A DNA stretch of 64,000 bases from Rhodocollybia butyracea (lineage: Eukaryota > Basidiomycota > Agaricomycetes > Agaricales > Omphalotaceae), in contig JADNRY010000074.1 in assembly GCA_015501585.1 (NCBI GenBank), positions 62,001 to 126,000 of the forward strand. The letters run 5' to 3'. A program made the translations under genes and the position numbers. The notes beneath the pieces were generated by a model. It made no database searches and was not told the DNA's origin. It saw only the letters and a program-made list of their open reading frames with translations. Each line of letters begins with the position of its first letter. The stretch's first letter is position 1. Positions 9,424 to 57,352 of this stretch are shown here, in pieces.

Positions 9424-10228
9424 TTATGCTATACCCCACCAAAACTCCGAAGGAAGTGGTTCAACAACGCCCTCAGCTTTCAGGAATTCAAAAAGGGCTT
9501 CCGCTTCGTTTATCGTCCCGATTAGACGGATGATCTCACCCCCATGCCATTTTAACCCCCGGCTTACAACAGTTCTGTCAGAAAGGAAGTCATTTTAGTC
9601 TAGAACCCAGCAGAAGAAATATTGCATACCGGCGAGTGTAGACACCAGGTCGCTCCCCCTTGATGACAATGAATCTCTCATTATCCATCTTGTTCTTCAA
9701 CGCAGCGAGGACCCCAGTCATTCAACATTCTTCATAAGCGGCTTCTCCCCGCTCAACTCCATTGAACCTCTTGTAAACAGCATCAGACAATCCAGCAGTG
9801 GCCTCCTTTGCTCCAATGGATCCTTCACTTCCTTCCCATTCCCGGTTCACTGTATCCAAATCGTTTAAGCCCCAATAAATAACATACAACCTTGACCCAT
9901 CGGATCCCACATTCGGCGGGTCAATTGGAGGCGAGTTTTTAATAAAGCTGAACGTTCGCCCTTTACCGGAACCAAGAGCCTGATAAATACCCCCCGCAGT
10001 GTAAGAAAAACTATAGTTGGCGGGAAATGCGATGGAGGTGGCGGCAGTGGCTGGAGTATATGGAAGGGAGCTCAGAGGCAACCTATCTGATAGCAAGACC
10101 GGTCAGTGGTTCAAGGCTAAGACGTACTAACCTGCCAACTTACTCAAGCAGTTGGGTGTAGCCGCGTCAACGACGCAGTCGGACTTGTTGTCCTTCGATG
10201 TGTCTGAGCTGTTGCATGGTGGCTGCAT
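9424..10228 (-). pseudogene. RNase H1 N-domain-like (viroplasmin-type) protein, in-frame TGA
   Basis: Starts at ATG 10228 (MQPPCNSSDTSKDN). An intron of about 55 nt ends near 10090, then comes a Ser/Pro-rich linker and the conserved block RLYVIYWGLNDLDTVNREWE ... VYKRFNGVERGEAAYEEC, which resembles the small RNA/DNA-hybrid-binding domain found at the N terminus of RNase H1. After the TGA at 9722-9724 the frame resumes with TGVLAALKNK and ERFIVIKGERPGVYTRR, a second intron, then GLKWHGGEIIRLIGTINEAE and a natural stop at 9424-9426. The gene inside the KDZ transposon at 46001-47196 has the same order (YIVYHGVGG, FIVIRGVNPGIYKKR, GLGWRGGYVIGATRGHN), so the two are paralogous. Where the TGA falls the ancestral codon was plausibly CGA. 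Confidence 0.65.
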
Positions 10229-23640: not shown

Positions 23641-24031
23641 ATTCCTATTTGTCGCGGGAGTTACCGCTTCCCTTCAACGTTCAGGTTGCGCTATGCGCTT
23701 ACATCTGGTACTTCTGCTTATACTTTCTCTCCATAACATTCAGGCCCGCGGGATGACGACCCAATGTAATACCATCTCCTGTTGTTTCATTCGTCTTTGC
23801 TACTACCTTACCCGCACTGCAAGCATACCCCGAGGGCTCGTCTTTGTGGCCTGGCGGATTGCTGCTTTGCCTTTTTTCTTTCTTCTTCTACCTCCTTACC
23901 ATTAACGCCCCGAGCCGACTTATCCTTGTCGCATTCTCTACTGCATTTCTGACTACTTCTACCTCACAGTACGCTCAGGAAAAGAGTTTAGAGCCTATGC
24001 GCTTTCTCCCGGCCTGCCAATCTGCGGGCCT

Positions 24032-25789
24032 ATGGAGTACGACATGTCTCTGGCTCTTGACCGGTATATCGACTCCCTCTCTGACGACGAAGGCGACCAC
24101 GACGTAGACCTAGAGAGCGACTGCGATGACTGCGACTATGGCGTCGAAGGCGCACCTTCTTTTCCACCTTCCGCCGCTAGCCACGGCTCGCCTCCAGCAT
24201 CCTCTGCTGCAGGAGACCGCAGCTGCTACGAGTTCTCCTCTGTCGCCCACGCCCCTTCTTCTGTGCACAGCAATGAAACCTCGTTCTCTTCTGCCCCTGG
24301 GAGCCGCGCGCCTCCCTCTCCTGAGGGCGACCCCGGCGCTTTCCCGCTTCCATCTTTTGGGCTCGTTCATCCGCTTCTTCACACCGCAGAAAGCGATGCC
24401 CTAAAAGCACCAGCGCCTGACCCGCAGAAGCCTCCTCGAGGGGATGCTGCTCAGCTGCCTCTGGATCAAGGGAAGGCAGCTCGAAGGAAGAGAAAAACCC
24501 AAAGAAAGCATGAGCAGCGAAGCGTTGAATGAAAGGTTGATCAGCCGGCCCAACCTCTTCTGCAGAAGGCTCTGAAAGAGGTTGCACGCCGTCGTGCTGC
24601 AGAGGCGCAAACCCTCAGCGCCGGCGATTCTTTTTCCACTGAAGACCTTCCTGTCAACAAGGGTGCATGGTCGGGGCTCAGGCAAATCTTTGAGAAAATA
24701 CTTCCAGACATTGCTGCGCTTACTGGTGAGGAATCTAAGCTGGAGCTTGTTCCATGGAATGGAAAGTGAGTGGGTCCATGCCTTCAAATTTGTTTTATTT
24801 GCTTACGCAGCACGAACTGCTCTAGGGATTGTTATGTTGTCGTAGATAAAGCAGGCCGTATCATTGCAGTTCTTGCCGGCAAACCTAGGGATGATAATTG
24901 GGATGCAGTTATGACCGAACTTACGGCCCAAATCAAAGATGCTCGCGGCAGTATGACGTTCAGTAAGAAACAGGAAGCTCATAAAAGAGGGAAGTTTCCT
25001 TCGGTTGCTGTAGGTACATTGTTTGGCGGGGGTAGTAAGGTATAGGCGCTGATTCTCCATCCCATCCCCAGCTAATTTTTCAACCGCAGAGACCTGGTAC
25101 AATGGCTTTCTATGGTGTAGCCAATTGTGCCATCCTTGTCAGCCTTATTGCGTCTTCTGGCTTCCATCGTCTTGTTGGGTTTGCAAACTGTAAGCTACTC
25201 CCTCCTTTTATTGATATTTAATTTCTAATTGTTTTCTTCTATAGCCATCTTCCAATGCTTTGCGGCGAATACGTTTGGATTGTACAACAAAAACCTCAAC
25301 AACCTTTTTGCTTCCAATCCTAGACTTACTCGATGGTTCAACGGTGTTTTCACAGGCGTTTCCTTTAACCTCGGCCCATGTACAGTCACCTGGCCTCATA
25401 CTGACTGCCACAACCTTGCTTTCGGATGGTGTGCTATCACTGCTCTAGGTAACTTTGATCCAGATCGCGGCGGGCATATGATTCTCTGGGACCTTGGTCT
25501 TGTCATACGCTTTCCTCCTGGATCTACAATTCTCATTCCCTCCGCACTGCTGACCCACTCGAATGTGCCCATTCAACCTGGAGAAGAACGTTACTCAATT
25601 ATTCAGTATTCATCTTCAGGTCTTTTTTGTTGGGTTTACAACGGCTTCCAGTCCGATAAAGACTTCATGGCAGCTGCGACGCCTGAGATGAAGATGAAGA
25701 GAGAGGAGGATCGAAAAGCCAGGTGGGGAAATGGGCTTCAGATGTTCTCTATATGGGAAGACCTTCGTAATCAGTACGCTAAAAAGTAA
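24032..25789 (+). pseudogene. TET/JBP-like 2-oxoglutarate/Fe(II) dioxygenase, one in-frame TGA
   Basis: TET/JBP enzymes oxidise 5-methylcytosine or related bases in DNA. Exons 24032-24765, 24811-25039, 25090-25189 and 25245-25789 sum to 536 codons in one frame. The N terminus is acidic and Ser/Pro-rich (MEYDMSLALDRYIDSLSDDE) with a basic patch (ARRKRKTQRKHEQR). Then come LTAQIKDARGSMTFSKKQEA, GGGSKRPGTMAFYGVANCAI and the catalytic core: WPHTDCHNLAFGWCAITALG with the HxD iron ligands (HTD), GGHMILWDLGLVIRFPPGST, the second iron ligand His in LLTHSNVPI, and Arg for 2-oxoglutarate in GEERYSIIQY. The only lesion is TGA at 24530-24532 (RSVE, stop, KVDQPAQP), upstream of the catalytic domain. It is a stand-alone relative of the gene at 48477-50263; no transposon ends were seen around it. 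A start downstream of the TGA could in principle still give the catalytic domain. Confidence 0.8.
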
Positions 25790-40671: not shown

Positions 40672-43128
40672 ATTCAATTATTCACAAACCGGTGAAACGT
40701 AAAGTGTTTGTCTACTCCACAACGTGTGCGTCATAGACTGTCATAGAACATGATATGGTCCGCTAACTGCTGTTTCTCCTTTTCATTCCGCTAATTAGTG
40801 ATAACTAGTTACATATCTACTGGACTTATGAATATTTTATAGCTATACAAAAACGCGGTTTGTGACCTACCCCTTGTCAGCCATACCCCCAGGACCCCTG
40901 AAAATGCCTACTAAGGTCTTTCAGCAGTTTGGACAAATCTGAGGAAATTTTAGCAAAAACCCTTTTGGGTTTCGGCCAAAATTCAAACAAAATCATCCTC
41001 AGATATTGAAGATTGTAAGTCTGCAGAACACCAGAAATTGAACACCAGATAGTTAACATGCTGCTATTGGTGTTCTGAAGCCCCATGGTCCAAAATAGGA
41101 CAGGAATTACACTCAGAAACTGAAAAAAATGCAATGTAGAACGGGCGCTAAACCTGATAAGCGCCGGAAGCCACTCGGTTTTCGGACATTTTCATGACCA
41201 GGGAGGCGATTTTGGCTCGGACATTTTGGCCCAAAATCAAAAAATTTACCAAAAGGCCTTGAGGTGTACTTTCAGGGGTCCTATACCCCCCCATTTGTGT
41301 AAGACAGCCCTTGGTCTGGCCTCCGGCACGCCTGACTTTCGGTGTGGGGTGAGCAATTTCCTCAGAAGCCTTGGATCAAAACTTGAATAATTTGACACGA
41401 ATCACAGCCTATTAGGGAAATGCCAAGACTATACCAAGATAGCCAAGACCTGCCGAGATCCATCAATCTTGATCGCTTGATCGATATTCAAATGTGTGAC
41501 AAGTGACGCCCCGATTTCCAGGTGAGCTTCAAGGTGCCCGCTTAAGTGATATGAACGCACCTGATTTTCAGGTGCCACGGTGAATGCCCCCGGTGTTAGT
41601 CTAGTTTGTCATACTTATTAGAAGTAATCGTCAAGTAATCTACGGTTGCATGCTATCTATGTATTTGTACCATTCTCGAATCCAACACCAACCCCAACCG
41701 CTACTTCAATAATCCCAATTTCTTAGTCCAGGGAACAATAGACCGTGCCCTCATCGCACAGCTGCATCCCCACCGTCGATGCCATATGTGAAACCACCGG
41801 TCTCAACATTGACGGGGTTGTTCACGCAGGATATGGCCCTTGTATTGGCCAGAAACTCCTCAAAGGTGGTATCGGATTCAGCGACCGGCTGGGTCGCAGT
41901 CTCGCTACGCCTACGCAACCGCCAGCCAGACTCATAACCCTCAACTGTTTGTCATGGAGGTGGCTTTGAACGTAGGTCTCCTTTGCTCTACTCCTTTCGT
42001 TTCTGTTTAATATCTGGAAGAGTTCATGGGGAACAATCCACTCTTCTATATCTCTGTGCTCAATCAAGGGTGCGAGACGCGAGTGACTTGTATTCCTTTC
42101 CATGTGCGTTGGTTTCCTATCATTAACCTGCTGACCGCATACCTAACTCGTTCCAGATCATACGCTCCTTTCGCCGCACATGAACCTGCCCCACGTTATA
42201 GTACTTGGATCAAAGGACAAAGAGGTAAGTTCCGGCTGATTATCTTCGGTTTTGAAGATCATCCTTTGTTTCAGGCTTCCAGATCTACAGAGGTCGTGGT
42301 AACTCGACGTATGTCCCTTGCCACGCTATCTTTGATGAAGTCACCTCGCTGAGGCCATGACTTTGCCATCTCGTACATCATGAGGTTGCTTACTCTACGC
42401 CGAACTAACTTAGCGTTGTCTTGTATTATTAGTGAACGGATGATTCAGACCTTACTTTTTCTATTAACGACTCTAGTACATGAGCATCAGGCTCCTGGAG
42501 TTGCGACCGGAAATCATGCTGGTGACCCGCACGGATGAAGTCCAAACCACAGCTCTCAGCAGCCTACGTTCACAGAGAGGCCAACCCACTTCAATTCACG
42601 TGAAAATGGACGAAGTCTTTCCAGAAAATGATCCAGGTCAAATACTCATGCATACAACCACTATCGTGGATGTTCACATTGCCACCACAGCCACTGCTCA
42701 CGTTTCAATAGCAAGGATAGAAATCCATGCTCATAGTCCATACAGCCATTGAAATTGCTCACATTATCACAGGCGTGAAGACTTCCTACGCATTTTATTG
42801 ACCTGGTACGTTTGTCATTCTGTGTGCGCTACTTAGTCTTGTTGGTGTTCACGAAACCGGGATAATTCTATTTGGCAACCCGGTTGCCAGTGCAGCAACC
42901 CCTTTGTTATTTAGCAACCCGATTGCCAGTGGCCGGACTGCGCCGCGAGGATGGCCAAAAAGGTCCTATGTGTAACATTATAATAAATTATGTAAACTCA
43001 GACTTAAGCGGCGACCTTGAAGATCTGGGCACTCCGCATCAACGGTGACCTTTAAGATCTGATCTACTGAGTAATCTATGCAGTTATACCCAACAGGGTA
43101 TACAACAGCATGCAAGTGGCATTACAAG
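40672..43128. other. No gene recognised
   Basis: About 2.4 kb. The frames at 41745-41969 (SHSCIPTVDAICETTGLNID) and 42480-42752 are open but show no family I know and are not linked by convincing introns. 42860-42950 has short repeats of GCAACCCGGTTGCCAGT-like motifs. The region ends at the target-site duplication of the split LTR. Confidence 0.35.
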
Positions 43129-43177
43129 CTTGATGTAAGAGCCCTGACTCTTAATGCCTCAGACCATGAGCAAGATC

Positions 43178-43397
43178 CACCTGTAAAGCCCCAGTATTGG
43201 GTTATGTAAAAGCGGATGTCCGGTTTTAGGATCCGCTTGTAGATAAGTGGCCAAGGTTATATTCGCACATATGCCTAAATACTGCACCTCTTAGGGTACT
43301 TTGGGGTAGAATCAGTACCCAGGCCTTCGGGACCTCCTCGGGATCATGTAAAACTGCCGGACATTGCGGCGCACAACGCTCCGGAGTTCGGAATATA
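43178..43397 (+). repeat. Left terminal inverted repeat of the KDZ transposon
   Basis: About 220 bp matching the reverse complement of 53581-53802 at roughly 85%. It contains a subterminal palindrome AAGCGGATGTCC...GGATCCGCTT that could be a transposase-binding hairpin. Confidence 0.9.
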
Positions 43398-43584
43398 ATT
43401 TTTATATACTGCGCTACTCATTTTTGTAAGTATAGAGTGTACAGCGTACAAGATATTGATTACACTAACGACATGGTATGATAATGAGAACAGCTAGTAA
43501 AGACAGCGTACAGACAAGCGAGAGTAAAACATTGACAAGCAACAAAAGGACGGCAAGAAACAGCAAGAAAAACTGAGCGGTGAC

Positions 43585-45956
43585 CTACTCGCTCACCTCC
43601 TCCTCCTCCTCCTCCTCCTCCTCCCCATTGCTATTGCCATCGTCCTCCTCTTCATTGGTATCGACCACAAACTTGGATGACTTTCTTCTAGCTCCGCCAG
43701 ACTTCTTTGATGCCCTCACAGAACCACCCTTCAAAGACCCCTTCTTCACCAGGGTCTTGGCCAATGCTTTTGACGATGTTTTCATTTCAGAAGATTTCTT
43801 CACCTTTGAGTTCTTCGTTTGAGCGCGGACCTCCTCGTTGCCGTTATCGCGTTTGCGCTTCCTATGAGATCCACCAGCGTCGCTGCGCTTTGCCTTCGCG
43901 GTTGGGTTAAGTGCATCTTCTTCCTCCAGAGCTCGAACGAATGCCTTGTGGTCCAAGGATGACATGCGCTCCCAACGAATGGCGCCTGCCTTCCAGCCTT
44001 CGTATACAACCCTGACATTAGCTGCAGAAAGTTTCTGCGGGCTAGCCATCACAACTCCCTCAGGCCATCCGACGATATTCACCTTGTAAGGCACAATGAT
44101 GGTTTTTTCGTATGTGGCGTAGCTCATTAAGACATTATTGAGACCGGTGATTTCACCTATATCTGAAAATAAGTATAAAAAAAACGAAATAAAAATGAGC
44201 CACGGCTTACGCAAACGAGAGGTGATAAGATCAGCGAGTTCTTTGTCTGTTTCATTTCGGGTGAGCTTTCGATTACCTCCTACATGATAAGCAAATAAGC
44301 GGCAGATCCAGAACATACTCAATAGAAAACTTACGCTTTTCCAACTCACATACGTGGTTCTCCCACATGATAGCCATGTCCTGGGCACCAATGTTGAAGT
44401 TTTTTCGAAGAAACTCGTCGCCGGGGCCTGTACCATAGTAGCAGGAGTGTACGGTATAGTCCCATGAGCCACGAGCCACGAACCCAAGGGTTTGAGAGCG
44501 CGTTGCTTCAAACATGAAATCTGCCTGGAGATAAATGAGCTACTGACAATGGAAGAATGAGAAATAAGAGATAAAATGCTCACCTCCTGTTGCAGCAGAT
44601 TTATTTTTCCTGCTACAAACTTCGCCGCAGAAGCTTTGCTCACCCGGATAGCCTTGAGCGTTTCTTCACTCTTCTCAGAGTCATACTGTTGTCGATATTC
44701 CTCCATGAGGTCAGGATCGTTGAGAGCGTCCATGAGTTCGTCATCAGCCTTGAGCGCAGTGTGGAGATCCCGTAGATGAATCTTGTCACCGACAGCAACA
44801 CCTGCAAAAAATTAGAGTAGAAGCCCATCAGTAATGGGATAGTATATGTCACATCACAAGCCTACCGTCATTGAGCTGTTGAGTTTTAAAGTAGAGGAGA
44901 ACATTATAGTTACTTGCTCTTTTTTGAGGCTTGATTGAGGGAAGGTGTCGAGCGAGCTCCTTGACACGATGAACACCGACGTTGTTGTCATCAGCAACCT
45001 TCTTGTACAATTTGTCAATCTCATCCAGCATATTGTCAATATCGCTGGTAAGTTGGGAAGCCCTATCGTTCGCAGCTTGTCGCATCAGCTTCCGCTCTTC
45101 AGGGCCCATCTCCGATCTCTTCTTCTTCTTAGTTGGCACACTGTTTGAAGAGGAGGCGGCAGCGTGATGTCCAGAATCCTGATCTCCAACACGATGTCCA
45201 GAGTCTCTGTCTGTGGCGCAACCTCTGGAATCTTCAACGCGACTTTCAGAACCATCGACGCGACTTCCGGAACCCTCAACGCAGCTTCCAGAGCCTGGAA
45301 GAGCACTGCCGATGCCAGAGGTCCTGCCCAGTGTGTTTTCACCACTATCAGGGTGTGAGCCGCCGTAAAAACCAGATCCATCCTCGCTGGAATGATTAGA
45401 GGCTGGAGTAGCATTGGATCTAGGCTGAGCTTGGCTGCCACCAGACAGTGCTGACAAGAGAGAGCTTTGTGTGGGTGCATAGTTGGGCCGAGGAGCTGGA
45501 GTTGGAGGATATGAACCTAGGGGAGGAAACGCATTAGATCAAAGTAACAAACCAGTTGAACAATTGTATGAAAAATCAAGAAAATGAAGGATACAAGGGT
45601 CAAACCATGAGATCTATCCATGATGAGTAAAATAAAACAAATCAAAAGCTTACTGGCCAATTCAGCGGTTTTCATTGAAACCTCAGGTAAAGTCGCGTTT
45701 TTGGAGAGTGCCGCCGCGTCCACAACATTGGCAACCTGGGGTGTTTGCCACTGGAGCCCCGTCATCGATGTAAAGACCAAGTAAACAAAGAGCAACCTTG
45801 AAAAAATATTGGGCAGCAGAACCAACTTGGATTTTTGACGAAGTCTAGCACCTGTGGCGGAGCCCGTGATCACTAGGTTTTTAGTCAAATTATCGGCCAA
45901 TACGTACTCAGTGCTTCTCTCTTTCCAACTACCACCATCTCCTCCTCGTCGTCCAT
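43585..45956 (-). CDS. 650-aa unknown protein of the KDZ element (GWP-motif family)
   Basis: Seven exons (45956-45908, 45851-45654, 45516-44866, 44801-44584, 44524-44335, 44279-44211, 44162-43585) keep one frame and sum to 651 codons with stop TAG at 43585-43587. The N terminus is acidic (MDDEEEMVVVGKREALS), then a Pro/Ser/Gly-rich repeat region with SGSCVEGSGSRVDGSESRVE, a basic patch (KKKKRSEMGPEERKLMRQAA), and a conserved-looking middle (LRDLHTALKADDELMDALND; DYTVHSCYYGTGPGDEFL). Near the C terminus IIVPYKVNIVGWPEGVVMAS is followed by WKAGAIRWERMS, a motif that I recall from many unannotated basidiomycete transposon-linked proteins. The tail is Lys-rich then (E)n. No enzyme fold is recognised. 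It is likely nuclear and may be a DNA-binding accessory. No stops, so it is the best preserved gene of the element. Confidence 0.75.
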
Positions 45957-46000
45957 TGTGAAGCCCAAGTTTCGAACAACCGTGAAAGTAATAAGCAAAG
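45957..46000. promoter_or_regulatory. 44-bp divergent start-to-start interval
   Basis: Only 44 bp separate the ATG of the minus-strand gene (45954-45956) from the ATG of the plus-strand gene (46001). Either promoter elements overlap the coding exons, or one true start lies further in. The interval is GC-moderate with no TATA box. Confidence 0.45.
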
Positions 46001-47196
46001 ATGACTGGTAAGCATCTCATCATATGTCTGACATGTGAAATCTGACATATGATCATGATATTTCAATAGAAAAAAATCTCCCACCTAGCCAGCGCCTTTC
46101 CGCTGACGCCCAGGCAAAACGCTCAACTTCAGCTATCAATGCGCAAGATACGCCGTTCAATCAAGTTGCTGAGCAACATGCAGCTCGGAAGTTCGCACTT
46201 CAAGACGTCGCCAAGCAAGCCTTTGGTAAGAATTTTTTATTTTTTATTTGCCTTTTGATTTTCATTTTTTTCCCCTGTAGCATTGCATGATGTGGAAGTT
46301 GCCCGCGCAAAGGCTCAAACTGACCTTGCGGTTGCGGAGCGTGGCGTCACTGACGCTCTGGCAAAAGCAAACAAAAGTTTTTGTGAGTTTCTGCAGCTAC
46401 GCCATCCATTTAGTACTGATATTCTGTTTCCAGCCTCACTTCAAGCCAGCTTCACGCCTCCAAGCACGCCAGCGTGCCAAAGCGAGATTGTGATGCTCTC
46501 TATGCCTTCCAGCTTCACGGCTCTGAGCACGCCAACACGTCGAAGCGAGGCTGTACTCTCCACGCCCTCTTCTTTTCCATCCCCGCGCAAGCCGCTTTTC
46601 AGCCCGGCAACCCGCATTGAGCTTGCGCCTGCTCCCCCGACTGCCTGGTACATTGTCTACCATGGTGTTGGCGGGGCCCAGGGTCTCTTTGATCATTGGG
46701 ATGGAGGAAACGATGCTGTCGGCGCTCGGGATATTGCAGACCATTGGTATGCTCATCGTTCGGTGAAAAAGTTTGATGACTTCCGTACTGCCAAAATGTA
46801 CTACAACGAGGTTTGCAATACAGGTATTCTTAACCTTCTGAAACCAGTTCCTTGCCGAGATGAGATCTTCATTGTCATTCGAGGTGTCAACCCTGGAATC
46901 TATAAGAAAAGGTAGGCTTTTTTCTGCTATTCATCTCTTTGCTAAGCTTATGCTGATGTTACAGGTACGAGCTTTTGAACAAAGGCCTTGGCTGGCGTGG
47001 CGGCTATGTCATCGGCGCTACCAGAGGTCACAACGCAGCCATCCACGAGTTCGGACTCCATGTCACCGAGGTTGAGAGGCTTGATGCGCAAGGCCCCCGC
47101 TCTGATTTTGACTACGGCCTCCTTGACGATGACAAGGTCAAGGAAGAGGATAAAGTCAAGTTGGAAGATACGGACGCTGGCCATTTCGCTGCGTAA
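46001..47196 (+). CDS. RNase H1 N-domain-like protein (two modules), KDZ cargo
   Basis: Exons 46001-46007, 46070-46225, 46281-46382, 46434-46911 and 46965-47196 total 325 codons (324 aa) in one frame with GT...AG introns of 51-62 nt. The N-terminal 90 residues are helical and polar (KNLPPSQRLSADAQAKRSTS; LHDVEVARAKAQTDLAVAER). A Ser/Thr/Pro linker (SFTPPSTPACQSE, STPSSFPSPRKP) leads to WYIVYHGVGGAQGLFDHWDG ... KKFDDFRTAKMYYNEVCNTG, which resembles the hybrid-binding domain of RNase H1 (also seen as a viroplasmin-type domain), and a second half FIVIRGVNPGIYKKRYELLN, GWRGGYVIGATRGHNAAIHE. The tail is acidic/basic mixed. No RNase H catalytic domain follows. A paralogue lies at 9424-10228. Its role in transposition is unknown; binding to nucleic acid is the natural inference. 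Confidence 0.75.
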
Positions 47197-47454
47197 CAGC
47201 TATCATGTAGTCATTGTTGTAGTATCACGCTAATCTGCTGTTTTATCTTGCTATCAATGTAACATTTGTTGAAATCAACGTGCTCAAGTACTGAAATTCT
47301 TAATAAAAAAGTAGTGAATGGCTTGATAATTGTACTAAGCTAAGTAAGAAACTGAATGAAATGGCATATGATATTAAGGCCCACAAAACTGCAACACTAT
47401 GTAACTAACCTGCAGAAGTGATATTCATCGCTCACTGGCTGTTATTCTCACTGA

Positions 47455-48072
47455 CTATTCCCCTTCTCGAGGCCCAGTGTGACGCTTAGACCTCCGAGAA
47501 CGATATGTCCCATATGCCCAATCAGCATCACCGTTCTTCTCAATATGCGCCCTGTAAGTACATCCAAAAGCATGAGTATGGGTAAGTAAGAAAAAGAGGA
47601 GAGCCAATGACGCACTTCCAACGCTTGTCTTCTGCTTTGGAAAGAATATGGTCTTGATTTCTGTTAGGTAGGTAAAGTTTGAATATATTGAAATTCCACG
47701 CCAGCCGCTCACTTGAGATAATGCTTTTTATCAATGTTCTTGCGGTGTTCCTTCCTTTGAGCATGCTCAGCATTATCTAGACCAGCCCGTAATCTAAAAA
47801 TTCTAAATGTTGAGCTGAGATTGAGAGGTACACGAGAACCTTACTTTGCCATTCGTGCCTTTGCAGCTTTGTTGATTTCATCTTTGTTTCTGCGAGCAAA
47901 AGGAACAATAGAAGCTAATGAGCAAAAGCTCAAGCTAATAGATGTGAGATTTGACTTACTTGAGGCGGTATCTCTTGGAGGCCCATCGAGCATTATCTTT
48001 TCGGATTTGCTCTTTGGCAGCTTCATCTCGCTTAGATTTTTGAATAGAAGACGGAGTACGCTCCCTGACCAT
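47455..48072 (-). CDS. Small basic multi-exon protein, KDZ cargo
   Basis: ATG at 48070-48072 (MVRERTPSSIQKSKRDEAAK), stop TAG at 47455-47457. Exons: MVRERT...ASKRYRLK, then (N)KDEINKAAKARMAK, then LRAGLDNAEHAQRKEHRKNI plus DKKHYLK, a short exon near 47610-47660 (KAEDKRWK) and AYIEKNGDADWAYGTYRSRR to the end SKRHTGPREGE. Introns are about 60 nt with GTAAG-type donors. The repeated RxKxRxRY-type segments make a positively charged helix-rich protein; similar short Arg/Lys-rich repeat proteins are common unannotated genes in agaric genomes. Nucleic-acid binding is possible, nothing more can be said. Exact exon edges are uncertain. Confidence 0.55.
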
Positions 48073-48476
48073 TGCTGAGAGAGTTCTACAGCAGTTTATA
48101 ACAGTAATTTGAAAGAGATGTTATAGTGGTAGGAGAAAGACAAGGAAAGTAAGTAAGCGCGCAATGCATACGTCAAAGCTATTCTGCTTTGATCGTTAAT
48201 CATTTCCTAAATAAATAAAAACATTTAATATTCAGAGCTACAGCAAACAAGAGTATGGAATAAATACACCGAAAGCAGGCCTAGACCTATGTTTACAACA
48301 TACAATAATCTTAGGGCATTTGAAAATTCTACTAGCTCAAAAATACACCAGATACGGCAAAAACGGTGTTTTACGTGTTCGTAATGTTTTTGTACCAGAG
48401 GTATAACACGTTCAAAAACATTAAGTATAGCAGAAAACCGACATCTATAGTACCGTACGACATACACAATCTATTA

Positions 48477-50263
48477 TCAACCCTCCTGGAGGAGCTCTAG
48501 GCCTGTCTCCCAAAGCTTTTCCCGATATTCCTTCCATAACCGTAGCTGCCTGGGAGAAGCACGCTCCTTGAACTCCTTATCAGACATATATCCGTTATGA
48601 AACCAGCGAGCAATACCCGCCGGTGTGAAAAAAGCAATTGATGACCGAGTCTCCTCGGGTGCGATGGGAACATTACCATGGGTGACGCATGCAGAGGGAA
48701 CATAGATGGTTGCCCCAGCTGGGAAGGGTACAACGACGCCAAGAGACCAAGCAATGAACTGACCACCTCGAGTGTGATCGAACTTCCCACTTGCGTGAAC
48801 TGCGCACATAGCAAAAAAAACGTTAAAAAAGTCTTCATGCAGTTGGGCCCAAGCCAAGTGCAAGTTAAGATGGCAAGCGGTATAGCAACAGCCCTCAAAC
48901 ATTCGCCGAATATCTGGGCTATCCATGAGCACCTTCTCTTGGAGGTTGGTGAGGAACAGGTGTAGCTTGGGGAAGTAGACCTGCAGGCCAGCTAATTGAA
49001 CGTCAGCCAGGGAAACAAAACAACGTGTGGCAACCTACAGTCAACGAGTCGAGCAATGCACTGAATAGCCTTATCCCGTAAGACTTTCTCGACAAGAGGA
49101 GCGTTGTGAGGTGAGTTGGCGTAGTTTCCAGGACAAGTTCAGCCACCTCCAAACCCAAAGCCTGCAGGCAATGATACGTAGCGACCGCGGCGGTGGATCC
49201 GATGAGCCAGGTCAACAACAGCGCTCTCATACAGCCATTCGAGCGCCATGCTCACCGCAGCTTCAGTAGCGGGCCAGGTTTCTCCCTTGGGAGGAGGTAG
49301 ATAGGCCATAAAGCGATGCCCGCTGGCTGTTTGAACGACATGGCCAACCCTGTGAAGCTGCATGAGGTAATATGCCAAAACATGAAGAGCTCACCTGACA
49401 TCCCATTCAACATAGCGGAGGCCAGATGCCTCAAAAACCTCCCTGACCGAAACTATTCTAGGCGTGAACGTCACCTGCTTTCCACTCCAGCCAGAGCCGA
49501 GGCACAAGTTAGCCAAATCCACAGTAACGGCGCCAGTCTCCTTTACCCGACGCCTGACGACGGCTTTCAAAACACTGCCGGAGGCCTTCTGAGCAGAAGT
49601 GCGAGCTATCCTCCGCTTGGCACGATACCGAGCCTTCTGGCGGGCTTTCCCCTCCCCAGCCTGACTAGCAGAAGCCGGAGGTTCAGCCAACCGAACTTTC
49701 TTATGGGGTCTAGCGCTGATGTCGGCAAGTAGTGTTGAGATGGGGACAGGGTCGGCGATGGAAGAGGGCCTAGGCAAGAGAAGAGACGAGAGAGGAAGAG
49801 AGGCAAGCTTCTGGGGGCGTAACCGGCTTCGGGATGAAACAACTTCATCGTGGTCATCACCCGACTCAAAAGCGGCCTCCTGCCTTGCCAGTGCTTCAGC
49901 CAGCAGGCCTTGAGGGTTGAAGTTAGCAAGCAAGATGTCAGAGCCTCGGCTTGACTCGCTGAATTCACGACCACTTCGAAGCGTGCGGAACCCGTCTAGA
50001 AATACAAATTAGCGGCGCGTTGGAATAAGTCAGGCTAGAGCTATCCAAACGCCCCGCATCTAGAGGCCCACCCTCTGCGTTCACACTTCCCCATAGCACG
50101 GGGTGGTGGAACTCGCCAACAGCTGTTAGACACGCGAAGCGCGCTGCTCAGGGGGAAGGCCGAGTGGCAACAGGCAGGGAAAGGTGTGAAAAAAGAGAGA
50201 GAAAGACTTACATCCAGCCGAGAGGTTTTGCTCAAGTTCATTGGACACAACCTTGCGCTTCAT
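48477..50263 (-). pseudogene. TET/JBP-like dioxygenase of the KDZ element, one in-frame TGA
   Basis: ATG at 50263 (MKRKVVSNELEQNLSAG), intron 50211-49996, then YGFRTLRSGREFSES and a basic linker (ARQKARYRAKRRIARTSAQK) likely to be a nuclear signal. Next come YVEWDV, an intron whose junction leaves the frame one base out, TASGHRFMAYLPPPKGETWP, SLPAGFGFGGG, TGA at 49139-49141, TCPGNYANSPHNAPLVEKVL, another intron, and the catalytic domain: FEGCCYTACHLNLHLAWAQL, HxD ligands in LHEDFFN, GGQFIAWSLGVVVPFPAGAT, second His in CVTHGNVPI, and 2-oxoglutarate-binding Arg in PEETRSSIAFF. The stop is at 48477-48479. All expected metal and cosubstrate residues remain. The sister gene at 24032-25789 has the same layout. 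It diverges from the transposase gene with 145 bp between starts. Confidence 0.8.
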
Positions 50264-50408
50264 GCTGTCCTGAACATCAAGAAGAACAGAGGGCGCTTAT
50301 ACGCCTTGCGCTTTTTCTATATGTCGGGCACATGACCGATTATGGTCATGTGGTTTAACTGTCTCGCAAAATCGCCAACTCCAGGAACTCCTCCAACGCG
50401 CTGATACT
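50264..50408. promoter_or_regulatory. Shared divergent promoter of TET/JBP and KDZ transposase genes
   Basis: 145 bp separate the two ATG codons. It contains TATATG near 50320 and short palindromic ATGACCGATTATGGTCAT (50331-50348), which could be a regulatory protein site. The head-to-head arrangement implies joint expression. Confidence 0.5.
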
Positions 50409-53400
50409 ATGTCCAATACACGCCGAGTCAATGCCGCTGTGAGGGTAAGAAAGAACCGTAACCTTCGAGGGCCGGCTCATGGACTTCGAGGCGACGCCGA
50501 TACTCAACGTAAATCCTCTACAAGACGAGGTGCAACTCAATCTTTACGTCTCTCGCAGGTCAATAGAGAGCGCAAAAAGGGTGCTGCAGCCGATGCTCGA
50601 CGATTGATCCTGCAGACGCCTGACATTTTTGAACAGCAAGACTACCATCTTCCTGTCGATGAACATCATGACTACAATATGCAAAACTACCAGGACGGGC
50701 CTGACCTTGCAGAATGGGATGATGATCCGGACTGGGTGGCACTGGGGGATAATGGGGAGCCTGAAGATGACGTTACAAAAGCTATGAAGGAGATGCGGCA
50801 CTCCTACCGCGATTTTTGTACCAGGCGAGACCGTACCCAGACATCGAATGAGCACTGGGCTCCTCAGCTGGATGGAATGGTTCGTGCCTATATGGATTTC
50901 TGCCTTAGGGAGAAGTCTGGAGGCCAAGAGGAAGAAGAAGCAGGGGCGGCTAGTATAATGATGGAAGTGATAGACATATTTGGTATGGCCCATCTCCGTC
51001 ACAATGAACGGGTTTACTGATTTGAGTCTTGAAGGTACTGAATTCAAACATATTCCCTCTTCTCATGACAAGTGGCAGTCCGAATCCTTAGTGAGGTCAG
51101 GGATCATCCCCACAGCTCCTCTTGTCCACAACAAAGGCGTTACCATTCGAACGGTCAACCTATATCATAAGCTCTTTGTTCGGTGCCCAAGACTAGGGGT
51201 TCAATCCTTTGCCAAGTCGCTGTGTGACCTTGAGGAAATGGCTTTCAGGCCTTACCTTTCTACAGAGCTCTACGCTGCCTTCGACGTCTATCTCTCCATT
51301 CTCCGGGAGGTACAAAAGCGTACAAAGTTATCGCTTGGGCATTCAGGACGGGAATGGCGGCTGCTGAACGCATGCCCATCATGCCAATACCGACTAAAAG
51401 AGGACGATAAGCAGGATGTCCGGATGTTGATGGCAATGGATGGGAACGACTCCCTGAAACGCGTTGAGCGCAAAGAGGACGTTCTCCAGGAGCGGGAAGA
51501 TGCAGGAGAAGATTTGCCAGAGGCATTGAAGGAACGCATTGACCGTCGAACTGCGGGGGAGGAATTCTTTGTCTCGCGTGCGGAGACATCCAAGTGGGAT
51601 GAAGGAAATTGGGGTTCACTTCAGCTACCCCAGGGAGATGATGTCTCGCCCACAGATACCTTTTGGGGAGACAGCGGTTGTGAAGAGAAATGGCAGAACA
51701 TGGATGAGAAGAAGACTGCCAAGGAGAGCTCGAAGTTTTTTGAGAACGGATGGTTTGTGCTTCTCTGTCGCCACATGGTGATGATGCTGGCTTGTGATAT
51801 GGTGAAGAGTGGTGAGCTGTATGTTATATCTTCTAATTCTTTGGCTGTCTGAAGCTCACAATTCTACAGATACCAATATCCGCTGGCGCTGCTAGCTATC
51901 TACCTGTCCGCTGAGAAGGAGGAGCGTGAAAGAAATCGGGAAGGGCCACCTGAAGGAAAACTCGGAAACGCTTACGATATACACTGCAAGTTCTCGAAGC
52001 ATCTTCGGCGCAGCCCTCTCAAGGCGCTAGCTGAATGGTCGAGGTACCTCCCTGTGATAGGAACAATGCATGGATATGCCCACAAACGCCAATGTCAGCT
52101 CCTCTTTCTTATGCTCTACATCTTAGGCGTCGGGATCGAAGACGGAGAAGTATGCGAGAGATACTTTAGTATCTCGAATGGTCTTGCTGCCATCACTCGC
52201 CACCAATCCGCTTTTCATTGACAGCAAGCCATCTCCGAGTTCGTATATTACCAGGACCTTCAGACGTACTCAAACATCAGCAAATTTATCTATGGGAACT
52301 ATAAACAGGCCCTCTCTATTACTCGTCGAACTAATGCTCTTCGACACAGCATGCTTAAGGCTGGAATCACCTCGCCCAAGGTATTCTTCGAATGGCTGGC
52401 AGAGGAGGGAGAGTATTTACAAAGCCTCTCTCGTACACCTCCGAAAGAGACCCTGGAGTGCGAATATTACCTGAAGTTGGAAGCTCTCCAGGCTTGCCAG
52501 GATCGTCTTCACAAGGCTCGAAAGGCTTGGCTATCTTTTGCCCCAGGCATCCGCGATCAGACCAATACGTTGGAAACAAAACGCCGAAACGAAGAAGAGA
52601 ACGAACGGAAGCTTCTGGCAGATGTGCATTGTTTGGAAGAGGTGCTGGAGGTCCGGGAGCGCTGGCTGGAAGGCTCAGAAAAATGGGAGGAAGCAAAGAA
52701 GGCAGCGAAGGAGACTACCTACAGGAAAGCACTGGATAAACTGGAGGGGCTGCTTGTCGCTCGAGTGTTTGAGATGAGCCGCTTAAATGTTGCAGGAACT
52801 GGTGAGTGTTTAAGGCTAGTAAGCTTCATATACTAACAGGTGAGCTTTTACTAGGCTATAAACTTCGAAAACATATTGCAAACGCTATGAAGATTCGTTC
52901 AAAATCGATCTCTGCCGCTATCATTGCCTACAATGACGCCGCTACCAGCCTCACCCCGCCACGACCAACGCTGAAGTGCGAGGAAGCGCTTGAGTTCATT
53001 TATCTATCGGAGTTTGACATCCTGCGGAACGCAAGAGAAGACGTGCGAGAGAGGCCGTGGGCTACCCCTGGAAACCGACTTATCATGACTGAGTTCTTCA
53101 AACTCATCCGTGCAGAGGAGGAGATAGGATGGCTGCACCTGGAAATTCAGCGGCTGATCACACACATGTTCGATGAGGAGGAGTTGATACTGGATAAGGC
53201 GGAAGCGGTTGAACTGGAGGACCCAGGGCTAGCGCTGCAGCTCAGGTCCTATTGGAATGAACGAGGGAAGTTCAATGAGCTTCATCGCAGACGTCTCTTT
53301 GCCATCAAGAAATTACCAGGATTTCAGCCTGAAAATTTACGATACTTCCGCCGAGGGACACATGTTAGCCAGGAAGATGCCTCGATGAGCTCAGAAAGGT

Positions 53401-53528
53401 CTGATCGTACCGCAGGCGTTGAAGCAGAGCCTGACGAGCCATGGGCTGAGGATGAGGACGGAGGTGAGGACGATGATGAGATACTGGGGCTAGTGGACAC
53501 AGTTATGAATCTTACAGTTGACGACTAG
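50409..53528 (+). pseudogene. KDZ-family transposase, one in-frame TGA
   Basis: Exons 50409-50982, 51035-51818, 51870-52801 and 52855-53528 sum to 988 codons in one frame (987 aa). The core reads EVIDIFGTEFKHIPSSHD, LYHKLFVRCPRLGVQSFAKS, LLNACPSCQYRLKED (CxxC), MAMDGNDSLKRV (first catalytic Asp, residue about 326), SGELYQYPLALLA, NAYDIHCKFSKHL (second Asp, about 487), GTMHGYAHKRQCQLLFLM (conserved His), and GIEDGEVCERYFSISNGLAA (catalytic Glu, about 544). TGA at 52219-52221 interrupts HQSAFH-stop-QQAISEFVY, where the family has Arg (FHRRQAI). After it the C-terminal helical region is complete (GTGYKLRKHIANAMKIRSKS; REDVRERPWATPGNR) and ends in an acidic tail. A single C-to-T change at a CpG explains the lesion. 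Confidence 0.9.
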
Positions 53529-53580
53529 ATTCATGTATTATATGTACTTCATTTAGCCTACGTTAATATGAGAGCGTAAT

Positions 53581-53802
53581 CCCGAACTCCCGAGCGCTAT
53601 GCGCCGCAATGTCCGGCAGTTTCACATGATCCGAGGAATTTCGAAGGCACCAAAGGCCTGGGTACTAATTCTACCCTAAAGTACCCTTAGAGGTATGGTA
53701 TTTAGGCATATGTGTGAAAATAACCTTGGCCACTTATCTACAAGCGGATCCTAAAACCGGACATCCGCTTCTACATAACCCGATACTGGGGCTTTACAGG
53801 TG
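53581..53802 (-). repeat. Right terminal inverted repeat of the KDZ transposon
   Basis: About 222 bp, reverse complement of 43178-43397, starting 52 bp after the transposase stop codon. Most differences between the two repeats are transitions. Confidence 0.9.
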
Positions 53803-53957
53803 GCAAGATCTCGTTCTATTAGAGAAATAGACCGAAACGAGTATGTGGTACGAGGATAAGAGTAGACTAATTATGTAATATCGGCGCTAACGGCAATGAA
53901 CGTGCCGTAGGCGTTACACTTGACCGTGCCAACCAGTTATAGCACAAATGCATTCCC

Positions 53958-54028
53958 GGTAGCTGTGCTATTTATTGTGGTGACCGAAATCCCAGCTTTG
54001 CAGTGGCTACAATAAATAGCACAGCCAC
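53958..54028. repeat. 71-bp hairpin repeat, copy 1
   Basis: GGTAGCTGTGCTATTTATTG at the left pairs with CAATAAATAGCACAGCCAC at the right. Preceded by TGCATTCC, as is copy 2. Confidence 0.75.
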
Positions 54029-54109
54029 AGTGCACCTATCATTTTGTCTTCTGAGTCAGTGGTCACTAGGCTTGCACATCTTGGCGTTCACGTCAGATGA
54101 TGCATTCCT

Positions 54110-54181
54110 GGTGGCTGTGCTATTTGTTGTGGCCACCGCAAAGCTGAGATTGCGGTGACCACAATAAATAGCACAGCCACC
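54110..54181. repeat. 72-bp hairpin repeat, copy 2
   Basis: GGTGGCTGTGCTATTTGTTG pairs with CAATAAATAGCACAGCCACC; a second inner stem GTGGCCACCGC lies next to it. The pair of hairpins 80 bp apart, each after TGCATTCC, indicates a duplicated segment. Confidence 0.75.
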
Positions 54182-54352
54182 GGAACGGCGTGACTTTGCC
54201 ATAGATTTAATAGTATATATAAAACTCACGATCTGACAGAAATCACGTGAGAATAGTCAGTCCGGTAGTCAGTTTCCTTCCGACCGACAGTGCCGACCAG
54301 ACGGGGCTATTCAATGAATACCAGCTATTTGGCAGTGAGATAAGTGTCACTG

Positions 54353-57200: not shown

Positions 57201-57352
57201 TGTAATGCCTACGGCACGTTCATTGCCGTTAGCGCCGATATTACATAATTAGTCTACTCTTATCCTTGTACCACATACTCGTTTCGGTCTATTTCTCTAA
57301 TAGAACAAGATCTTGCTCATGGTCTGAGGCATTAAGAGTCAGGGCTCTTACA
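57201..57352 (+). mobile_element. 152-bp solo LTR with 5-bp target-site duplication
   Basis: TGTAATGCC...CTCTTACA, flanked by GCACC (57196-57200 and 57353-57357); the first Gag element has GCACC once at the matching place. It is the same LTR family as the one split by the KDZ transposon. Confidence 0.95.

Follow-up and report, generated by a model that had tools for sequence, protein, structure and literature searches.

A structurally complete five-gene KDZ transposon carrying a TET-like gene (by predicted fold) in the mushroom Rhodocollybia butyracea

Complete KDZ transposons, and KDZ transposons that bear TET genes, are already in print. Those with TET genes were described as Kyakuja, Dileera and Zisupton (with Agaricales among their hosts), and their TET genes are a proposed counter-defence whose function is, according to the same source, not experimentally validated (Kojima 2025, PMC12730594). 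The ends of KDZ elements were characterised in the Marasmius oreades genome paper (PMC8290104), while in Cryptococcus neoformans KDZ1, KDZ2 and KDZ3 (~11, ~9.2 and ~10 kb, with inverted ends of 241, 139 and 169 bp) were caught inserting in culture, with target duplications of 8 bp (KDZ1) or 4-8 bp (KDZ2 and KDZ3) (PMC12810828). Here we analyse a KDZ transposon (E1) in a 64,000-nucleotide stretch (the window) of contig C1094 of Rhodocollybia butyracea (genome 95.6 Mb). The fungus is a saprotroph. An earlier reading of the window from its letters (the sequence-only reading) was right as to KDZ identity, exact ends, nesting and five genes, whereas its premise that full KDZ elements are difficult to come by has been overtaken by the three papers above. 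Beyond that reading, we found that the cargo gene D is TET-like by predicted fold and that a second family has the same set of genes.

Boundaries, sister copies and order of insertion

E1 is delimited by inverted ends (first bases CACCTGTAAAGCCCC), whose similarity extends, in a second self-comparison, to 43394/53579, and it is flanked on both sides by GCAAGATC. A genome search with the 15-bp end (allowing at most 1 mismatch) returned 20 places, 6 of them exact and forming three facing pairs. The sister copy E2 (C531:12175-22793; 10,619 bp) is 98.5% identical to E1 and has the duplication CAACCATT, so that the exact 8-bp duplications of the two copies differ, as do their flanks, and similarity ends within 3-4 bp of the element ends. 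A more divergent copy, E3 (C25:85929-109001; 23,073 bp), is 72-75% identical in the longer matching pieces. Inverted ends accompany an exact 8-bp duplication in E1, E2 and two copies of a second family (on C650 and C902, below), and 7 of 8 bases in E3 (AGGTTTC, the eighth being mismatched). Nested in E3 lies a Gypsy retroelement (C25:93068-105421; L011-L012) whose 1813-bp long terminal repeats (LTRs) are 99.9% alike, and which is therefore a recent insertion. These results agree with the sequence-only reading, which had given the element ~220-bp inverted ends, a perfect 8-bp duplication and the limits 43178-53802 and had suggested a genome search for the ends; neither of the outcomes that it held to speak against it (no other copies, or similarity stopping elsewhere) occurred in the end search or in the comparison with E2.

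The outer flanks of E1, when joined, correspond to one 572-bp piece that is contiguous on C453 (98.1%) and C918 (93.0%), where CTTGA is present once. On account of these empty copies the order of insertions is established: the host repeat was there first, an LTR element entered it and left one LTR behind, and the transposon then inserted into that LTR. The two LTR pieces (44 and 108 bp) rebuild a 152-bp LTR that departs at 3 positions from the solo LTR at 57201-57352, which has its own duplication (GCACC); both the nesting within CTTGA and the equal length had been proposed earlier. The target GCAAGATC is uninterrupted in two LTRs on C531, near E2, and the LTR is common in the genome (40 matches scored among 264 first-look candidates, a lower bound). 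Within the host repeat, at 53948-54183, we also observed two fold-back sequences (~70-80 bp), which occur there as inverted as well as direct copies.

Gene content and its recurrence in other families

The five genes of E1 (exon models hand-built on GT-AG borders with E3 as guide; Table 1) are arranged as A(-) B(+) C(-) D(-) T(+). Spliced T matches the Pfam family KDZ (PF18758) at E 1.1e-54 (185.9 bits, cut-off 26.6) over profile positions 2-216 of 217, which bears out the identity assigned from the letters; neither another Pfam family nor, for the CxC cysteine cluster, a Pfam CxC family was found in it up to E 10. Gene A corresponds to a public protein of R. butyracea (P0005) at 100% over the whole query, P0005 (655 aa) starting further upstream. 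Domain searches found no known domains in A, B and C, and gene B was without a match in both the Pfam and the PDB search. Elsewhere in the window (9620-9895, minus strand) lies a 28-30% relative of the central stretch of gene B (residues 158-251); it has several similar places in the genome and appears to be a different repeated gene that shares the domain.

The earlier count of three unbroken genes was correct: the reading frames of A, B and C are uninterrupted in E1, and T and D each contain a single in-frame stop. E1 is thus complete in structure but now broken. In E2 only C is open: B and D are each interrupted by a single stop and A and T by a single frameshift, at places other than those of the E1 defects; in E3 both T and D contain stops.

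The sequence-only reading had also suggested looking for copies that share the same five genes, and these exist: the order and orientation of E1 recur in a second family with exact ends of its own (361 bp, first bases CACCTGTTAATCCC). Its copies lie at C650:324446-335512 (duplication GCTACTCA), C902:8391-23154 (duplication GAATCGGC) and C620:149-11253 (ends paired). All five genes in E1 order and orientation are found at C650 (C only at E 0.014) and at C434 (81-bp ends, C at E 0.056; an 8-bp duplication looked for beside these ends was not found), with stops inside some of the matched stretches of both. Furthermore, the order and orientation of A and D are preserved at C620, C902, C58, C456 (where D ends ~1.4 kb from the contig end) and C1300; matches to B accompany them at C620, C58 and C456, and matches to T at C620, C902 and C58. 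The families that share the set are ~30-50% identical in protein. Sequences related more remotely to the 361-bp ends (73-86%) were observed on C1238 and at C827:516219-537726, where they point towards each other across 21.5 kb that include a D-family match. An end on C9 (L053) and one on C650 (L052) have an identical 20-bp flank; the C9 end may be the other haplotype of C650, and because of this shared flank we think that both haplotypes are probably retained in parts of the assembly.

Table 1. Coordinates of E1, its genes and the surrounding repeats in the window
Feature	Position	Strand	Remarks
KDZ transposon E1, 10,625 bp	43178..53802		inverted ends, 8-bp duplication; same ends in E2 and E3
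E1 left inverted end	43178..43391	+	88.7% identity to right end over 222 columns
E1 right inverted end	53582..53802	-	self-comparison with left end
Target duplication GCAAGATC, left	43170..43177		exact
Target duplication GCAAGATC, right	53803..53810		exact
Gene A	43585..45765	-	6 exons, 605 aa, open in E1
Gene B	46001..47196	+	5 exons, 324 aa, open in E1
Gene C, basic protein	47455..48072	-	5 exons, 126 aa, open in E1 and E2
Gene D, TET-like dioxygenase (by predicted fold)	48477..50263	-	4 exons, 492 codons, one premature stop in E1
Gene T, KDZ transposase	50409..53528	+	4 exons, 987 codons, one premature stop in E1
LTR, first 44 bp	43134..43177	+	joined LTR: 3 differences from solo LTR 57201-57352
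LTR, remaining 108 bp	53811..53918	+	comparison with solo LTR
LTR duplication CTTGA, left	43129..43133		single CTTGA in empty copies
LTR duplication CTTGA, right	53919..53923		single CTTGA in empty copies
Host repeat that received the LTR (42859-43133 + 53924-54220)	42859..54220		contiguous 572-bp copies on C453 and C918
Intact solo LTR, same family	57201..57352	-	comparison with rebuilt LTR

The putative role of gene D and the decay of inserted copies

We consider it probable that E1 belongs to a family of cut-and-paste KDZ transposons in which T mobilises the element, D putatively demethylates it, and the inserted copies become methylated and subsequently decay at CpG sites. Under this scheme T would bind the inverted ends and excise the element; judged by the anatomy of the locus, it almost certainly cleaves at the CACCTG ends and integrates the element with an 8-bp stagger, in the manner of Cryptococcus KDZ1. 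D, a putative iron/2-oxoglutarate dioxygenase, would oxidise 5-methylcytosine on the element and thereby allow its expression ahead of host silencing, and we regard an escape from silencing by this route, analogous to that proposed by Kojima for other transposons, as likely. A, B and C may help with either transposition or demethylation. Copies once inserted would be methylated and decay by C-to-T changes at CpG, which would lead to the present state (stops in T and D of E1, other defects in E2).

Gene D is TET-like by its predicted fold: the model of a homolog (P0013; predicted local distance difference test score, pLDDT, 80.9) has CcTET and NgTET in its top six structural rows and TET2 in the next five. 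E1 D has the metal triad H-x-D...H, of which the H, the D and the distal H are nearly invariant among 31 relatives, and relatives without stops exist in Lentinula and Gymnopus. That D instead acts on a protein (in the manner of a prolyl hydroxylase) or on a metabolite, benefiting the KDZ transposon in some other way, appears unlikely to us, given that the TET rows have longer aligned stretches than PHD2, that Tet_JBP is the Pfam family most often matched among the 31 relatives, and that 3 of the 4 Tet_JBP matches in the genome (none above cut-off) are D-family loci. A TET-like cargo gene suggests that such elements may fight host silencing.

It is less likely still that D and the other cargo genes were captured as passengers and do nothing for the element, a view in keeping with the lack of known domains in A, B and C, with the D relatives found away from KDZ loci and with the loss of D and T in E1 and E2. 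Such passengers do not sit easily with a set of five genes that keeps its order across families as divergent as those above, nor with the frequency at which D adjoins KDZ: the 144 KDZ matches in the genome collapse to 88 loci, 25 of which have a D-family gene within 6 kb (uniform placement expectation 1.2), always on the opposite strand (17 diverging as in E1, 8 converging). Moreover, the ratio of nonsynonymous to synonymous substitution rates (dN/dS) against E3 is low in all genes (T 0.08, 978/987 codons; D 0.16, 470/492; A 0.24, 519/605; B 0.19, 314/324; C 0.09, only 35/126; codon pairs with a stop excluded: T 6, D 2, A 0, B 1, C 3), although these values are rough because dS is 1.6-2.1 and near saturation. 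In the comparison of E1 with E2 the ratio is 0.43 for T, 0.49 for D and about 1 for B and C. This pattern points to genes that were maintained for as long as the family was mobile and that drifted after insertion.

Of the 137 substitutions between E1 and E2, 128 are transitions and 110 are of CpG type. That the two are assembly copies or alleles of one insertion is scarcely credible, for even though duplicated haplotype pieces seem present (as with the flank shared by C9 and C650), their flanks and exact duplications differ, similarity stops at the ends and these 137 positions separate them. C-to-T changes at CpG amount to 79/1002 and 31/910 (other C, about 0.2%), and TCG changed 2-3 times more often than other CpG (C531:20413-22793 and window 43178-53802). 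The genome has 5 matches above cut-off to a DNA methylase family. CpG decay in basidiomycete transposons was tied to methylation, with a TpCpG bias in Microbotryum, by Amselem 2015 (PMC4352252), and the TCG preference seen in this mushroom is the context published there for Microbotryum; for Agaricomycotina, hypermutation is given as undetected by Kojima 2025 (PMC12730594). We word our data as CpG-biased decay, as read from the substitutions, and not as proof of a hypermutation process.

Several observations weigh against the methylation-centred scheme. The protein that was folded is a Gymnopus homolog and not E1's own D, and the sequence link of D to TET is weak: Tet_JBP is matched in 4 of the 31 relatives (best E 0.01, below cut-off), a profile search of PDB sequences returned no TET up to E 10, identity to CcTET is 14-16%, and at least one paralog (C434) has H-x-N in place of H-x-D. 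For 83 of the 108 D-family loci there is no KDZ match within 6 kb, so that D genes occur outside KDZ elements as well; the same follows from a second TET-like D-family gene in the window (23906-25789, plus strand; no KDZ match within 15 kb), in which the open reading frame 25229-25789 matches Tet_JBP at E 9e-4, below cut-off. None of E1, E2 and E3 is intact and T and D are never both open, gene states that presuppose a correct assembly. Finally, the CpG bias extends to the flanking repeat pair (15/27), and the decay is thus not special to the element.

The lineage makes the counter-defence idea testable (clean boundaries, sister copies, a stable gene set and stop-free D relatives) and offers in A, B and C three conserved transposon genes. 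As a more tentative suggestion, which we put forward with some reserve, it might be an old Omphalotaceae KDZ lineage with a fixed five-gene set, in which D would form a further TET class outside PE and AG and perhaps also outside PU. On that reading, the lineage and the CpG decay seen in its stranded copies would document, in nature, an arms race in which the host methylates and the transposon demethylates.

Relation to described KDZ elements

Literature text searches (most subscription papers and supplements lying outside their reach) met neither a five-gene KDZ set nor a KDZ element of R. butyracea, and the main-text sections of Kojima 2025 (PMC12730594) mention no five-gene set. The PE-type hallmark HxE of that paper is not present in E1 D or its relatives, which have HxD, and, as judged by spacing from H-x-D, D may also lack the AG residues (Gly/Ser and Asp at positions 331 and 337 of CcTET from Coprinopsis cinerea), Asn apparently standing in D where CcTET has Gly331 and Cys where it has Asp337. 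Kyakuja, with a 7-bp duplication and no inverted ends, differs from E1, with its 8 bp and ~220-bp inverted ends; on the other hand, the elements of Kojima resemble E1 as complete KDZ transposons with a TET/JBP gene, and Zisupton and Dileera share with it the 8-bp duplications (PMC12730594). The transposases of Cryptococcus KDZ1-3 have a CxC1 domain, whereas T had none in the Pfam search, and the word dioxygenase is absent from the main text on these elements, whereas E1 has D; in their KDZ transposase, size range, long inverted ends and target duplications, however, KDZ1-3 are like E1 (PMC12810828).
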